Origin: Flavobacteriaceae bacterium
GTDB lineage: Bacteria; Bacteroidota; Bacteroidia; Flavobacteriales; Flavobacteriaceae
Direction: 5' to 3'
Length of the DNA: 64,000 bases
NCBI GenBank assembly: GCA_016744415.1
Contig: JADGEL010000003.1
Location: forward strand, 1-64,000
The notes under the pieces were generated by a model. It was not told where the DNA came from and made no database searches. It was given only the letters and a program-made list of their open reading frames with translations. Within the stretch, counting starts at the first letter, position 1; every line of letters starts with the position of its first letter. Both the position numbers and the translations under genes were made by a program. Of this stretch, positions 230 to 6,218 are shown piece by piece.

Positions 230-2023
230 TTGAAAAAAATATTACTCACATTGTTTTTCGCATTACCATCTCTTTGTTTCTCTCAAGAAGGAGTTATAGA
301 TAGTTTAGAAAATGTAATTGTAGTTACCGATAATGACTCTATAATTATGGATACCTACAATAAACTTCGTAGGGCAACTTATTATTCTGCTCCAAAAAAG
401 TCTCAAGAATATACTTTTAAATATCTTGAGGTAGCAAAAAAGCGTCAAGATTCATTTCATACAGCTATTGCTAATTTTTATCTAGGTAATTCTTATGTTG
501 TACAAAGCAATTATAAAAATGCTTTAAGTCATTACTTAAAATCAGCAAATTATTTTGAGAAAAGGGATTCGTCACGTTATAGTTCGGTTTTAAATGGTAT
601 AGGTGCTGCCTATGAAAATAGTGGGAACGATTCTTTGTCTTTAAAATATTTTAAGAAATCACAAATTATAAGCAAATCTCGTAGAGATTTGAGGCGTAGT
701 GCTATCGCCTTGAACAATATTGGAAATATTTATAAGAATAGAGGGGACTATAAAGTTGCTAAGGAGTACATGGAAAAAGCCGTTGCTGATATTGAAACAA
801 CTGGAAGAGAGCAATATATTATTCCGTTATCAATAAACCTTGCAAATATTTATACAGATATCAAAGATTATGATAAGTCAATATTATTTTTTGAAAAGTT
901 GCTTATTCAAATAGATACTGTAAAAGACGTTTATAGTTACGCTGCAGCACTCAGAGGATTAGGAACATCAAATATTGCTAAGGGTAAAAATAAACTGGGT
1001 TTAAAATACTTTGAGCATGCATACAAAAAATATCGCATTTCTGATTTTTTTGATGAGCGCTATGATATGATGCCTGATCTTATCAATGCTTATAAAGTAA
1101 ATAAAAAATATAGTGATGGATTAAGATTGTATGATGAGTATAATACAATTAAGGACTCTATTTTTAGTGTTGAAAAAGATAAAAATTTAACCGAAGCACT
1201 TCAGAAATATGAGAGTGAAAAAAAAGATGCTCAGTTAAAAGTTTTGGAGTTAGAAGGTGAAAAGAGTAAACAACAGAAAAAATTATATTTGTTTGTCGCT
1301 ATTGCTGGAATTTTAATAGCAGTACTTTTAGGTTTTTTTGGATATAAAAACAGGAAAAAGAATATTATTTTAGATAAACACAAACGATTTTTAGAAGCTA
1401 CACTTGATGAGAAAAACACACTGCTAAAAGAAGTACACCATCGTGTTAAAAATAGTTTTCAAATTGTTTCGAGTTTGCTATATCTACAATCTGAAAATAT
1501 TGAAGATAAAGAAGCTAAAATAGCAATTAAGGAAGCCGAAAATAGAGTGCGTTCTATGGTGCTAATCCATCAGAGGTTGTATAATAAAGATGAGCTGGTA
1601 GGAATAAATACCAAAGACTACTTTAATGATTTAGTACATGATATAATTGAAAGTCATCAGTTTAAAAAAGAAAAAATACAGTACGAACTCTATATTGAAT
1701 CACTTGTGTTAGATATAGAAACCATTACTCCAATTGGTCTTATATTAAATGAATTGATTGTAAATACATTAAAACACGCATTTGTAGAAGTACATGAAGA
1801 TAGCAAACTTGTAGTCCGTTTTTCTAAAGAGAATGATCGGTTAGTATTAAAAGTAATTGATAATGGGAAAGGTTTTGAAGGGGAAATTGAAAATACATCT
1901 TTCGGTATCACATTAATGAAAGCATTGTCAAAGAAATTAAAAGCAAATCTTAATTACTTTTCAGAACCATCAGTAGGTACAAAAGCTGTGTTAGATATTA
2001 AAAGATTTAATATCCTTCCTTAG
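230..2023 (+). CDS. TPR-containing sensor histidine kinase
   Basis: Membrane sensor kinase of the Bacteroidota TPR type. An N-terminal signal peptide (about 1-18) is followed by about five tetratricopeptide repeats (about 75-310, presumably periplasmic), a coiled-coil stretch, one transmembrane helix (about 352-373) and a cytoplasmic HisKA_2-type kinase. The phospho-acceptor motif EVHHRVKN lies near residue 403, and the ATPase carries the N box (LNELIVNTLKH) and G box (DNGKGF). The start is TTG, chosen because it gives a complete signal peptide and no in-frame ATG precedes the repeats. The partner is the LytTR regulator 17 bp downstream. The signal sensed is unknown; TPRs suggest a protein or peptide ligand or partner. 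Confidence 0.9.
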   Translation: MKKILLTLFFALPSLCFSQEGVIDSLENVIVVTDNDSIIMDTYNKLRRATYYSAPKKSQEYTFKYLEVAKKRQDSFHTAIANFYLGNSYVVQSNYKNALSHYLKSANYFEKRDSSRYSSVLNGIGAAYENSGNDSLSLKYFKKSQIISKSRRDLRRSAIALNNIGNIYKNRGDYKVAKEYMEKAVADIETTGREQYIIPLSINLANIYTDIKDYDKSILFFEKLLIQIDTVKDVYSYAAALRGLGTSNIAKGKNKLGLKYFEHAYKKYRISDFFDERYDMMPDLINAYKVNKKYSDGLRLYDEYNTIKDSIFSVEKDKNLTEALQKYESEKKDAQLKVLELEGEKSKQQKKLYLFVAIAGILIAVLLGFFGYKNRKKNIILDKHKRFLEATLDEKNTLLKEVHHRVKNSFQIVSSLLYLQSENIEDKEAKIAIKEAENRVRSMVLIHQRLYNKDELVGINTKDYFNDLVHDIIESHQFKKEKIQYELYIESLVLDIETITPIGLILNELIVNTLKHAFVEVHEDSKLVVRFSKENDRLVLKVIDNGKGFEGEIENTSFGITLMKALSKKLKANLNYFSEPSVGTKAVLDIKRFNILP

Positions 2024-2040
2024 GCTTAAAATAAATATAT

Positions 2041-2727
2041 TTGAAACCATTACAAATTTTTATTGTTGAAGACGAACCTCTTATTACTGTTACTATTGAA
2101 ACAGCATTAATAAAACAAGGTTATGCTGTATGTGGTGATGCTGAAGATTATGAAAGAGCACTGAAAAACATTACAATGCTCACTCCAGATTTAGTCTTAC
2201 TTGACATTCAGTTAGAAGGTAAAAAAGACGGGATAGATTTAGCAAAGCAATTAGATATAGTTGGAATTCCATATTTGTATCTAACTTCTCAAACTGATGT
2301 TTGTACTATTGATCGAGTCAAAGAAACCAGTCCTTTAGGTTATATTGTAAAACCATTTACAGAAACAGGATTGCGTAGTACTATTGAAGTCGCATGGAAT
2401 AATTACTCGCCAAAAGAAAAAGAATTTCTTATTTTTTCATCTGATAATAAATTGTATAAAATAGATCAATCACAAATTTTGTATTTAAAAGCATATGATA
2501 ACTATTGTTATATTTATACGAATCATAAAAAATATTTAGTTCCAAAAACATTAAAATATATTGTAAAAAATCTTAGTGATAAGAATTTTATAAAAGTACA
2601 TCGTTCCTATGTAATAAATATTAATAAAGTAAGTGCTTTAACATCTACGAGTGTACTTATCAATGCAATTTCTATTCCTTTAAGCAAATTGCATAAAGAA
2701 GAAATAAAGCAAAAATTAAAGTCGTAA
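2041..2727 (+). CDS. LytTR-family response regulator
   Basis: Cytoplasmic two-component regulator. The receiver domain (about 1-120) has the acidic pair D11/E12, phospho-acceptor Asp55 in LVLLDIQLEG, Thr82 and Lys104 in IVKPF. The C-terminal half is a LytTR DNA-binding domain, with the typical HRSYVININ and PLSK segments. It starts at TTG, 17 bp after the sensor kinase stop, so the two are surely co-transcribed and form a pair. A 21-bp-spaced direct repeat directly downstream (2733-2767) is a plausible binding site. LytTR regulators in this phylum often control exported or surface products, which fits the exported protein genes that follow. Confidence 0.9.
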   Translation: MKPLQIFIVEDEPLITVTIETALIKQGYAVCGDAEDYERALKNITMLTPDLVLLDIQLEGKKDGIDLAKQLDIVGIPYLYLTSQTDVCTIDRVKETSPLGYIVKPFTETGLRSTIEVAWNNYSPKEKEFLIFSSDNKLYKIDQSQILYLKAYDNYCYIYTNHKKYLVPKTLKYIVKNLSDKNFIKVHRSYVININKVSALTSTSVLINAISIPLSKLHKEEIKQKLKS

Positions 2728-2732
2728 AAGGC

Positions 2733-2767
2733 GTTCACTAAAAAATAGGGACTGTTCACTAAAAATA
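2733..2767 (+). promoter_or_regulatory. Direct repeat, candidate LytTR operator
   Basis: GTTCACTAAAAA occurs at 2733 and again at 2754, exactly 21 bp apart, on the same face of the helix two turns later. LytTR proteins bind two imperfect ~9-bp direct repeats with a 12-13 bp spacer and a GTT core, which is the geometry seen here. The site lies between the LytTR gene and the promoter of the exported protein at 2824. Confidence 0.55.
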
Positions 2768-2773
2768 GTCGTT

Positions 2774-2800
2774 TTGTAAAAGTTAATTTTAATAGGTTTG
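2774..2800 (+). promoter_or_regulatory. Candidate promoter of the exported repeat protein
   Basis: TAGGTTTG at 2793-2800 matches the Bacteroidota -7 consensus TAnnTTTG, with a TTG at 2774-2776 as possible -33 element. The spacer of 16 bp is short for this class, which would suit a promoter that needs an activator bound at the direct repeat just upstream. Confidence 0.45.
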
Positions 2801-2823
2801 AATATCTATTAAAATTAAATCTT

Positions 2824-5280
2824 ATGAAAACAACATTAAAAAATAACATACTCATACTTTCAATAGTATTGTTTACTGCTAATTTAAACGCTCAAAATTG
2901 TGGTGCTGGAGATATTACTTTATCCTTGCAATCTCAAGTAAATAATTTTGTTTCTTCCTATTCTAGTTCAGGATGTACAACTATCGATGGTAACCTAACT
3001 ATTGAAAATGCAAATATTACGGATATATCTGGATTATCATTTTTAACTACAATTAATGGGTTTTTGAAAGTGAAGAGTACAAATAACCTTAGCAGTTTAA
3101 GTGGACTAGAGAATATCGCAACTATTGGAGACTATTTTGAAGTAACTGGTATAAGTTTTTTAAGCCTAATAGAAGTTGATCTTCCAAATTTAAATAGTGT
3201 TGGAACTCATTTAAAAATAGATAATGCAAACAATTTACTAACTGTTGAAATATCAAACTTAACAAGTATCGGAACGTACTTACAAATAAGCAAAACACCA
3301 AGTTTAACAACAGTAGATTTTCAAAGTTTATCTAGTATAGCATCAAGTATCTTTTTAACAAATAGTTTTGGGTATCTACTTGGATCAAACTCTTTTAGAG
3401 TGCTAAATCTTCCTAACTTAACAACTCTAAACTTTTCTGCTATGACTAGTTTAGGAGGAGATTTTTATGTAAATACTGCTGGTATATCTGATTTTTCAAA
3501 TATGCCAAACTTAATTAGTATTGGGGGAGATTTTAATCTAGAAAATAATCCATCTTTAACAACAATCGTAGGCCTACCAACTAATAATCTTACAGGTAAT
3601 ATAAATATTTATAATAATGCTACTTTAACAGATTTAGGAAGTCTTGTTAATACTACAATATTAAATGGATATTTAAATATTAGAGATAATGATTTACTAA
3701 CCACATTTTCATTTCCGAATTTAACATCAGCAAACTCATATGTTTTGTTTGCATCGTCTAATATTACTTCAATTTCATTACCAAGTTTAGCAAGTTTAAC
3801 AGGAACTTTAAAAATAGGTTCAGGTACTAGTGCCTCATCTACAATATCTTCTTTAGATATACTAGGCGCAACTAATTTATCAAGTTTAGATATTTCATCT
3901 TTAACTTCTCTTTCTGGTTATGCAAGAATAAGTAATACTCAATTAACCAATTTGGATGATTTAAGTAATATTAGTTCAATAGGTGCTTATATCACAATTG
4001 AAGATAATTCACTATTGACGGATATTTCTGCAATTACAGGTTTGGCATCAATAAATGGAAACTTAACTATTAGTAATAATAACATGTCAGCAATTACTTT
4101 TCCTAATCTAACAACTATCAATGGTGCTTTAGATTTAAACACCAACCCAAATGTGAACACTATTAGTTTTCCTTTATTAAGTAATATTAATAATTATATT
4201 TCTATTTCAGATTTTGATATAACAATTATTGATAATGCAAATTATTTACAAATAGTAGATAGTAGTACATCAACAATTGATTTTGGTAGTATTTCTTCAT
4301 TAAACACTTATTTTAATATTAAAAATTCTTCTTTGACTGATTTAAATAGTTTTTCTAGTCTTACAAGTATTGGTACTAACATTGGTGTTTCTAACAATAC
4401 TTCATTAAATGATATTTCAGCATTATCGGCTATTACATCTGCTAATGATATAATTATTGAAGGGAATGTACTAACAAACCTTAATGGTTTAGAAAATTTT
4501 GCAACCGTTAATAACTTATCTGTCACTAATGAAAATAATATTACAGACCTTACAGGAATTAACTTAAGCGGAATTAATAATGCTTTGACCATAGATAATA
4601 ATGATAATCTAACATCTTTAAATAGTATGATAAATATAGATGCTTTAAATGGAAGCATGACAATAACAAATAATGCAACTTTAGTTGATGTTGATATTCT
4701 AAGTGATCTTTTATATGTAAAAGATGACCTACTTTTAACATCCAATGCTTTATTAGAAGAATGTTGCGTTGTAACTAACTTTTTAGATGCAACAAATTAT
4801 ATTGGTGGAGCTCTAACAGTTTCAGGAAATAATACTAATTGTGTATCAATACCTTCTATAATAACAAGTTGTAGTGTTTCGCAAAGTGATGTAGATACTG
4901 ATAATATTATAGATACAGAAGACAATTGCTCAAGTATATCAAACCCAAACCAAGAAGATACTGATGGAGATGGAGTAGGAGATACTTGTGATAATTGTCC
5001 AGATGATGCAAATGCTCTTCAAGAAGATGCAAATAACAATGGAATTGGAGATGCATGTGAAGCTTCAGGAACTGGAGCAGATACTGGTTTAGACACTGGA
5101 GGTTTAGGAATTGGAACATCTAGCCCAAACAGTCAATTTGAAATTGCAAAAGGAGATGTATTTATAAAAAATATGCATAGGGGAGTTATTATGAAAGCGC
5201 CAAATGGTAAATGTTTTAGAATGCAACCTAATAATGAAGGTTTACTAAAGAGTACAGAAATTACATGTCCAGATAATTAA
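2824..5280 (+). CDS. Exported repeat protein with thrombospondin type 3 repeats
   Basis: Secreted 818-residue protein. After a signal peptide (about 1-23) come many ~22-25 residue repeats of the kind ISGLSFLTTINGFLKV / LTSIGTYLQIS, resembling leucine-rich or receptor-L-domain solenoids of Bacteroidota surface proteins. Residues about 690-745 carry calcium-binding thrombospondin type 3 repeats (DTDGDGVGD and similar). The C-terminus (about 755-818) is a short Cys-containing domain with GVIMKAPNGKCFRM, not a classical T9SS sorting domain. Probably cell-surface or released and possibly adhesive; substrate unknown. It follows the kinase/LytTR pair and is separated from the next gene by 12 bp, so the two exported proteins are likely co-expressed. 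Confidence 0.8.
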   Translation: MKTTLKNNILILSIVLFTANLNAQNCGAGDITLSLQSQVNNFVSSYSSSGCTTIDGNLTIENANITDISGLSFLTTINGFLKVKSTNNLSSLSGLENIATIGDYFEVTGISFLSLIEVDLPNLNSVGTHLKIDNANNLLTVEISNLTSIGTYLQISKTPSLTTVDFQSLSSIASSIFLTNSFGYLLGSNSFRVLNLPNLTTLNFSAMTSLGGDFYVNTAGISDFSNMPNLISIGGDFNLENNPSLTTIVGLPTNNLTGNINIYNNATLTDLGSLVNTTILNGYLNIRDNDLLTTFSFPNLTSANSYVLFASSNITSISLPSLASLTGTLKIGSGTSASSTISSLDILGATNLSSLDISSLTSLSGYARISNTQLTNLDDLSNISSIGAYITIEDNSLLTDISAITGLASINGNLTISNNNMSAITFPNLTTINGALDLNTNPNVNTISFPLLSNINNYISISDFDITIIDNANYLQIVDSSTSTIDFGSISSLNTYFNIKNSSLTDLNSFSSLTSIGTNIGVSNNTSLNDISALSAITSANDIIIEGNVLTNLNGLENFATVNNLSVTNENNITDLTGINLSGINNALTIDNNDNLTSLNSMINIDALNGSMTITNNATLVDVDILSDLLYVKDDLLLTSNALLEECCVVTNFLDATNYIGGALTVSGNNTNCVSIPSIITSCSVSQSDVDTDNIIDTEDNCSSISNPNQEDTDGDGVGDTCDNCPDDANALQEDANNNGIGDACEASGTGADTGLDTGGLGIGTSSPNSQFEIAKGDVFIKNMHRGVIMKAPNGKCFRMQPNNEGLLKSTEITCPDN

Positions 5281-5292
5281 AAATATATATTT

Positions 5293-6060
5293 ATGAAAGA
5301 TATAATATTTACTGCCATATTTATTTTTATAACTATTGGTATGTATTCGCAAATTACTAATACAGAAGTTTTAAAAGCTGAAGAAGGAATTGACTTAATA
5401 TTAGAAGATATTTTTTCTAACAGTAGTAGTGGTTCAGTTATCAATAATGGGAATATCACATTTAATAATACATATAATGATGGTGGGGTATTAAATGTAT
5501 CTCCAAGTTCATCAACAATAATAAATGGAAATTATAGCACTTCAGGAATACTTGAAGTAGTTATTAATGGTTCAGATGCTGGAAATATTCTTGGGTATAG
5601 CCAAATAAACATTAATGGCAATCTAACTTTAACTTCATCAACAATAAATGTAATTATAGACCCTGCATATTTACCTGGAGATGGAACAAAACATACAGTT
5701 ATTACTTATACAGGAAATTTGACAGATACGTTTACAACTGTAAATCTACCAAGTACAGGTTGGTATGTAGATTATTCAACTCCAGGAGAAGTGAATGTTG
5801 TTAGAGACCTTGTTTTAGCCATAGAAAATGTTGATATGGTTACTTTTTTAGTATACCCAAACCCAACCTCAGGAATTGTAAATATCCAAACTAAAGAAGA
5901 TATTGATAGAATTGAAATTTATGATATAAATGGTAGGTTGATTTTTAATAAATTAAAAACCTCACAAGTTAATATAAGCCAACTTTCTGTTGGAGTCTAT
6001 ATACTTAAAGTGGTAGGGGAGAATGGAGAATCATCAATAAATAGAATAATAAAAAATTAG
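5293..6060 (+). CDS. T9SS-exported surface protein
   Basis: A signal peptide (about 1-19) is followed by a beta-rich region with Ser/Thr/Asn-rich sequence and a predicted beta-sandwich. A clear C-terminal type IX secretion sorting domain follows from about residue 185: it begins VYPNPTSGIVNIQ, then IEIYDINGRLI and LSVGVYILKV, the type A pattern. It is therefore exported across the outer membrane by the T9SS. The body of the protein matches no enzyme I recognise. It lies 12 bp behind the TSP3-repeat protein and in front of a strong hairpin, closing the kinase-regulator-target unit. Confidence 0.85.
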   Translation: MKDIIFTAIFIFITIGMYSQITNTEVLKAEEGIDLILEDIFSNSSSGSVINNGNITFNNTYNDGGVLNVSPSSSTIINGNYSTSGILEVVINGSDAGNILGYSQININGNLTLTSSTINVIIDPAYLPGDGTKHTVITYTGNLTDTFTTVNLPSTGWYVDYSTPGEVNVVRDLVLAIENVDMVTFLVYPNPTSGIVNIQTKEDIDRIEIYDINGRLIFNKLKTSQVNISQLSVGVYILKVVGENGESSINRIIKN

Positions 6061-6075
6061 ATAAAACGAAATTTT

Positions 6076-6130
6076 TTAAGATACAAAAAACACCAACAAT
6101 AAAATATTGCTGGTGTTTTTTGTATCTTAA
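6076..6130 (+). terminator. Long bidirectional hairpin terminator
   Basis: Bases 6076-6100 pair with 6106-6130: a 25-bp stem with a single mismatch and a 5-nt loop. T/A runs lie on both sides, so it can act on either strand. It ends the transcription unit of the T9SS cargo gene. Confidence 0.8.
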
Positions 6131-6218
6131 AAAAATCAACTTTCAATTATCATATTTATAAACTTATTACGTTACTGTAATAGTATAAATTTTTTAAGGC
6201 TAACAATAAAATAAATTT

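Follow-up and report, generated by a model that had tools for sequence, protein, structure and literature searches.

Gene organization of the locus

The window analyzed here, by which we mean the whole stretch of 64,000 nucleotides from a Flavobacteriaceae bacterium, begins with a gene for a sensor histidine kinase and a gene for a response regulator, behind which lie two genes for exported proteins followed by porQ and then cmk (Table 1). The kinase carries TPR repeats and, as read by eye, a probable signal peptide and one transmembrane segment. The regulator combines a receiver with a LytTR DNA-binding domain, with profile scores well above the family cut-offs (LytTR 63.0 bits, cut-off 22.6; Response_reg 62.6 bits, cut-off 30.2), and it reads FIKVHRS at the place of FhRhHRS, with K instead of the first R; excerpts from PMC4227749 describe FhRhHRS as the motif of the LytTR DNA-binding domain. 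Residues F182, H186, R187 and S188 (numbered without the first residue) were invariant in 18 aligned regulator sequences. A previous reading of this DNA made from sequence only (the sequence-only reading hereafter) had assigned LytTR, TSP3 and T9SS-sorting domains to these gene products, and profile matches bore out each assignment.

A stretch of 96 bp separates the regulator gene from the gene of the 818-aa protein, and the first repeat begins five bases past the end of the regulator gene. As the sequence-only reading had it, a 12-bp direct repeat, identical in both copies and with a period of exactly 21 bp, stands between the TPR kinase/LytTR regulator pair and the genes for exported proteins. 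Only 12 bp lie between the two exported-protein genes, which probably form one transcription unit, and the 24-bp inverted repeat behind them is probably the terminator that closes this two-gene unit ahead of porQ. The sigma-70 promoter scan is unsuited to the phylum Bacteroidota, and in the window the primary-sigma -7 box of this phylum, TAnnTTTG, was recognized as TAGGTTTG. From the numbering of that box (-12 to -5 in excerpts from PMC9723704), the predicted transcription start falls near 2805.

Table 1. Features of the locus and their coordinates in the window
Feature	Position	Strand	Evidence or remark
Sensor histidine kinase gene	230..2023	+	Pfam HisKA_2 2.2e-24, TPR_12 3.3e-22, HATPase_c 4.4e-07
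Response regulator gene, receiver and LytTR DNA-binding domain	2041..2727	+	Pfam LytTR 3.1e-17, Response_reg 4.6e-17
Operator repeat 1 (putative), GTTCACTAAAAA	2733..2744	+	core TTCACTAAA at 2734-2742
Operator repeat 2 (putative), GTTCACTAAAAA	2754..2765	+	core TTCACTAAA at 2755-2763; 21 bp from repeat 1
13-bp perfect inverted repeat around the -7 box	2783..2818		arms TTAATTTTAATAG ... CTATTAAAATTAA
-7 box, TAGGTTTG	2793..2800	+	39 bp past the start of repeat 2
First target gene, 818-aa secreted protein	2824..5280	+	Pfam Receptor_L/LRR-like repeats, TSP3 repeats
Second gene, T9SS cargo with type A sorting domain	5293..6060	+	PF18962 5.2e-14, TIGR04183
24-bp inverted repeat	6072..6134		arms read by eye; absent from the output of the consensus terminator scan

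Specificity of the repeat pair in the window and in the genome

A single half-site was rejected as evidence because its count in the window is at chance level: the 12-mer with up to two mismatches occurs at 17 places against 22.4 expected, with no excess. Taken as a pair, GTTCACT-N14-GTTCACT is matched perfectly at a single place of the 3.13-Mb genome, the pair of the window; the second-best site of this pattern (one mismatch, C2:231743) lies within a coding frame and was discarded. The pair is also the only site of the genome to match TTYACTAAA-N12-TTYACTAAA with zero or one mismatch, the next best places carrying two. In the relatives such sites precede the regulator gene and mostly secreted or surface-protein genes. 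Uniqueness in the genome proves little by itself, because in this genome the reversed control of the latter pattern is itself matched twice with at most one mismatch. When a weight matrix was trained on 40 sites, with the genus of the window left out, the pair scored 37.4 bits and the runner-up within the 64 kb 12.4 bits.

Loosening the patterns removed the signal. With three mismatches the genome holds 192 matches against 384 reversed for the GTTCACT pair and 166 against 227 for the refined pattern, being rarer than the control in both cases, and across 60 relatives the pair with one mismatch was matched in 26 genomes with similar reversed counts. Since loose patterns show no excess over the reversed control, only tight or composite patterns are informative, and because the pair with one mismatch is no commoner than its control, the case depends on geometry and on the element being conserved at orthologous places. 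These counts, together with the AT-rich run in which the pair is found, are what a chance repeat in AT-rich intergenic DNA, or a terminator remnant, would lead one to expect. Conservation and the fixed geometry of the sites, which are presented below, argue against such an origin, as does the strongest predicted hairpin of the region, which is the downstream inverted repeat and not a pairing of the two repeats; we regard either origin as exceedingly improbable.

Half-site consensus and promoter geometry

Over 44 non-identical sites the consensus is aTTCACTAAAaAaA, followed 21 bp further by TTcACTAAAaA, and the relatives keep the element as TTCACTAAA-N12-TTCACTAAA. The classical LytTR half-site consensus has a GTT core, and the sequence-only reading had taken GTT as the core here as well. 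That part has to be given up: the base preceding TTCACT in the first repeat of the 44 sites varies (A in 29, G in 8, T in 4 and C in 3), so GTT is not a conserved core and the core is TTCACTAAA instead. The LytTR-type layout claimed in the same reading stands, with two 9-bp direct repeats separated by 12 bp ahead of the -7 box in the window and with 9-12-9 or 9-11-9 arrangements generally; excerpts from PMC6193735 report for LytTR systems 9-bp repeats whose spacing is mostly 12 bp and in some cases 11 or 13 bp, with low conservation of the repeat sequence from one system to another. Among 38 sequences, some of them from the same species, the strict pair occurred 31 times with a period of 21 and six times (five distinct) with a period of 20, and never with a period of 19, 22 or 23; the box was present in 29 of the 31 period-21 pairs and in all six period-20 pairs.

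The distance to the promoter is equally constrained. A TAnnTT box starts 38 bp (20 sites) or 39 bp (19 sites) from the start of repeat 2, hence in 39 of the 44 sites, which had been chosen without regard to the -7 box, and no other offset of TAnnTT exceeds four sites. The columns of DNA between repeat 2 and the box are not conserved. Past TAnnTT the next base is T in 23 of the 39 boxes, then A in 21 and G in 11, so that the final G of TAnnTTTG is weak in the relatives. We found no -33 element of the primary-sigma type: no TTG is shared in the 30 bp upstream of the box, the maximum being 3 of 39 promoters at any one position. The sequence-only reading had argued that a short 16-bp spacer would make the promoter dependent on activation; the activator-like layout is retained, and the -33 element with its 16-bp spacer is not conserved. 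Combining the 38/39-bp distance with the published box numbering (PMC9723704, in excerpts) would place the operator centre at about -56.

Such an arrangement bears on the sign of regulation. The sequence itself would also fit a regulator that binds as a repressor and silences the surface genes until it is phosphorylated or released, and LytTR proteins can repress, as AgrA does at bsaA (PMC4227749, in excerpts). A repressor, though, would overlap the box more often and would have no need of so exact a distance, and an operator that stays wholly clear of the -7 box on its upstream side, at a constant distance that centres it near -56 in promoters lacking a -33 element, has the layout of a helper; repression is in our view improbable.

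The inverted repeat around the -7 box was considered as a shared second operator and was rejected as a general feature on its arm lengths. In 39 promoters not classed as regulator promoters (one of which, G025:6991, is in fact a regulator promoter) the mean longest arm was 5.97 against 5.33 in shuffled sequence, and in 15 regulator promoters it was 5.27 against 5.35. One locus (L067) has a 10-bp inverted repeat of other sequence at the place that matches the 13-bp one of the window. Separately, 12 of 54 promoters, all outside the regulator-promoter class, contain GCTATTA 12-13 bp beyond the first base of the -7 box; this heptamer may reflect shared ancestry or an initial transcribed element.

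Conservation of the site with the regulator subfamily

Orthologues of the regulator match at 81% in a genome of the same genus (G011), 63% in G028 and 57% in G025, and among the 80 loci listed they come from Aequorivita, Algibacter, Winogradskyella, Psychroserpens and others. In all of the first four loci examined the repeat lies behind the regulator gene, and G025 has a second one in front. A matrix site above 20 bits, within 7.5 kb and in the regulator's own direction, accompanies 35 of 39 non-identical regulator copies scoring above 230 bits, and among more distant regulators a weak matrix site is near 2 of 11. Three of the four copies that have no period-21 site (L230, L236, L229) carry the N11 form, with a 20-bp period and the box at 38, and at the fourth (L071) only a degenerate pair could be picked out by eye. 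Counting period 21 only, 16 of the 39 copies have a site no more than 100 bp ahead of the regulator gene, 29 have one just behind it and 13 have both, and L229 and L230 add two regulator-upstream sites with period 20; no such site precedes the regulator gene of the window. For the kinase gene, no upstream site was matched in G000, G011, G028 or G025, and one is present in G114 (L224). Across 543 kb of regulator loci the matrix gave 61 hits (58 distinct), every one intergenic, against none in reversed DNA, most of the 61 having also trained the matrix; sites from related species are not independent.

The regulator was present at E 1e-55 in at least 21 of 299 genomes of the family, which its named relatives mark as Flavobacteriaceae; the count is a lower bound because the census scored at most nine candidates per genome and could have missed some. 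The strict composite promoter occurred as 12 sites in 10 of the 299 genomes, against none for the reversed control, and all 10 were among the 21 with the regulator (P = 2.6e-13), a value that is flattering since most of what defined the pattern and the matrix came from the loci then counted; for the same reason the match amounts to consistency plus specificity and not to an independent test. The strict pattern misses 11 of the 21 regulator genomes. Better evidence than the P value comes from its absence in all 278 regulator-negative genomes of the family and from sites distant from the regulator, namely G153:C1:1511159, which is one of the 12 composite sites and lies about 600 kb from its regulator, and G011:C17:18590. 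In 395 genomes of the order the composite promoter appeared in only two, both on the regulator-positive list, with one hit in the reversed control. These distributions bear on whether another protein, for example a different LytTR paralog, binds the repeats and the neighbouring regulator is a bystander. Candidates exist, as the genome of the window has 15 matches to the regulator protein at E <= 0.001, the regulator itself included; that every composite-promoter genome has the regulator, and that distant regulators seldom have even a weak site nearby, makes a different binder slightly less probable still than repression.

Several observations on other loci were made in passing. In Marivirga a weak site (L080, around 4045; 24 bits, box at 39) lies behind a regulator of 37% identity, by which the code may reach beyond Flavobacteriaceae. 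Genome G121 has two kinase genes ahead of one regulator gene (L238, 9616-13298), and at the second regulator copy of G099 (L236) three sites with a 20-bp period surround tandem surface genes. Inspection of further, more distant LytTR regulators for 21-bp repeats gave variants in L072 and L087 and nothing clear elsewhere. A triple 21-bp repeat in G015 (L186; best regulator match 1.8e-20) and a 21-bp repeat pair inside a coding frame in G002 (L187; 4.7e-17) are left unexplained because their best regulator matches are in the range of ordinary paralogs.

Target genes and a possible exchangeable slot for surface proteins

The genes behind the sites are the regulator gene, once a kinase gene (L224), and otherwise mostly genes whose products have secretion-signal-like starts. 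Ten target proteins scanned for families gave LRR with T9SS sorting domain in two, a galactose-binding-like domain with T9SS sorting domain in one, Peptidase_S74 with YadA_head in one, a phage Collar in one, C1q/YadA-like domains at the margin of the cut-offs in two, and no family in three. Besides the kinase, the non-surface genes include that of a 105-aa membrane-like protein (L060, L240), and the sites in L059 and L234 have no same-direction gene for about 2-3 kb.

The same-genus relative, whose gene order is regulator, surface genes, porQ and cmk, keeps the repeat, whose absence from such relatives would have counted against the sequence-only reading; it has the repeat before two different surface genes of the locus and once more on another contig. 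The 818-aa protein aligns with a G028 protein (L052:4587-6134) encoded upstream of the kinase of that genome, with 44% identity over 449 columns in BLASTP, the C-terminal region being common to both; its other relative in the compared loci (L232) is weak, at 34% over 83 columns. The last 60 or so residues of the 818-aa protein (window 5100-5277; GIGTSSPNSQFEIAKGDVFIKN...) are common to the G028 protein, and by eye its tail resembles the start of fibre-like targets (VGIGNTNPQATLDI).

Across species the displayed proteins range from LRR/TSP3 proteins and LRR proteins with a T9SS sorting tail to S74 or YadA-like fibres, phage-collar-like and C1q-like proteins. The sensor half of the kinase has 28% identity to that of G028 and 22% to that of G025, against 72% and 53% for the kinase half, and within the genus the values are 77% and 84%; this divergence rests on four kinases. 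The faster divergence of the sensor half and the change of surface genes suggest an exchangeable slot, and we put forward tentatively, as a reading slightly short of even chances, that the kinase and regulator, with the composite promoter, stay in place across species as a conserved slot for control, that the surface gene placed in this slot is exchanged, and that the sensor half diverges along with it. The sensor may be tuned to the displayed protein or its ligand. Three findings go beyond what had been noted from the sequence of the window: relatives carry sites upstream of the regulator gene, the -7 box keeps its 38/39-bp distance, and the surface gene differs from species to species.

Comparison with known LytTR systems and proposed mechanism

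Like the AgrA/AgrC system of Staphylococcus aureus at P2/P3, the locus has a LytTR regulator and two direct repeats just upstream of a suboptimal promoter, the promoter-proximal repeats of AgrA being centred near -60 against about -56 here (PMC4227749, in excerpts). It differs in the half-site (TTCACTAAA), in having a Bacteroidota -7 box in place of -35/-10, in a kinase of TPR and HisKA_2 type, and in its targets, which would be surface proteins and, in relatives, the regulator itself. HdrRM and BrsRM of S. mutans share the 9-bp direct repeats just upstream of the promoter and positive autoregulation (PMC6193735, in excerpts); those systems, however, couple the LytTR protein to an inhibitory membrane protein, whereas here the partner is a histidine kinase. 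An AlphaFold2 model of the regulator (pLDDT 89.7, pTM 0.57) had chains of ComE from Streptococcus pneumoniae as its five best PDB matches (TM-score 0.43-0.44), with 4cbv as the closest solved full-length fold (Foldseek E 4.2e-12 over 247 columns). Identity to this structure is only 16%, the TM-score of 0.43 comes with a large rmsd (the domains being arranged differently), and the promoter type also differs; when only the LytTR domain was searched against PDB, a single weak relative, 3d6w, was returned. FimS of Porphyromonas, which has a role in fimbriae, is likewise a Bacteroidota sensor kinase, but membership of the window kinase in that family is ruled out by its score of 25.7 bits against NCBIfam FimS (NF053520), far below the cut-off of 600.

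Considering these data together, we hold it to be highly probable that the repeats are the site where the neighbouring LytTR regulator acts as an activator, with phosphorylation by the TPR kinase. In such a scheme the kinase would phosphorylate the regulator, two copies of which would occupy the direct repeats from the same face of the DNA with their centre some 56 bp before the transcription start, and the bound regulator would help load RNA polymerase on a -7 box lacking any useful -33 element, switching on the unit 2824-6060 with its LRR/TSP3 surface protein and T9SS cargo protein. In many relatives the same switch would also feed the gene of the regulator itself. The sequence itself shows the domain content, the repeat and its conservation alongside the regulator, the constant distance to the -7 box and the kinds of genes that follow; we infer the binding, the phosphotransfer, the activating sign and the signal by analogy with the systems above.

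Implications for Flavobacteriaceae

In the open-access literature searched, we came upon no LytTR binding site described for Flavobacteria or any other Bacteroidota: excerpts of three Flavobacteriaceae papers that name LytTR (PMC5395568, PMC10197871, PMC7440613) describe none, nor do those of PMC10142375, in which TTCACTAAA occurs as part of a primer. The mechanism is known in kind, as LytTR activation, and the novelty lies in the half-site, the Bacteroidota promoter context and the surface-protein regulon. On the strength of the sequence comparisons, the repeat pair is very probably the switch by which the regulator turns on the neighbouring surface-protein genes, and the same pair recurs in related bacteria before quite different surface proteins. 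If this is true, one LytTR subfamily in Bacteroidota would have a readable cis-code, the exact geometry of the promoter would allow its regulon to be predicted, and the locus would offer a clear case of an activator replacing the -33 element of the unusual Bacteroidota sigma factor. It would also point to a likely means by which Flavobacteriaceae control adhesin-like and T9SS surface proteins.
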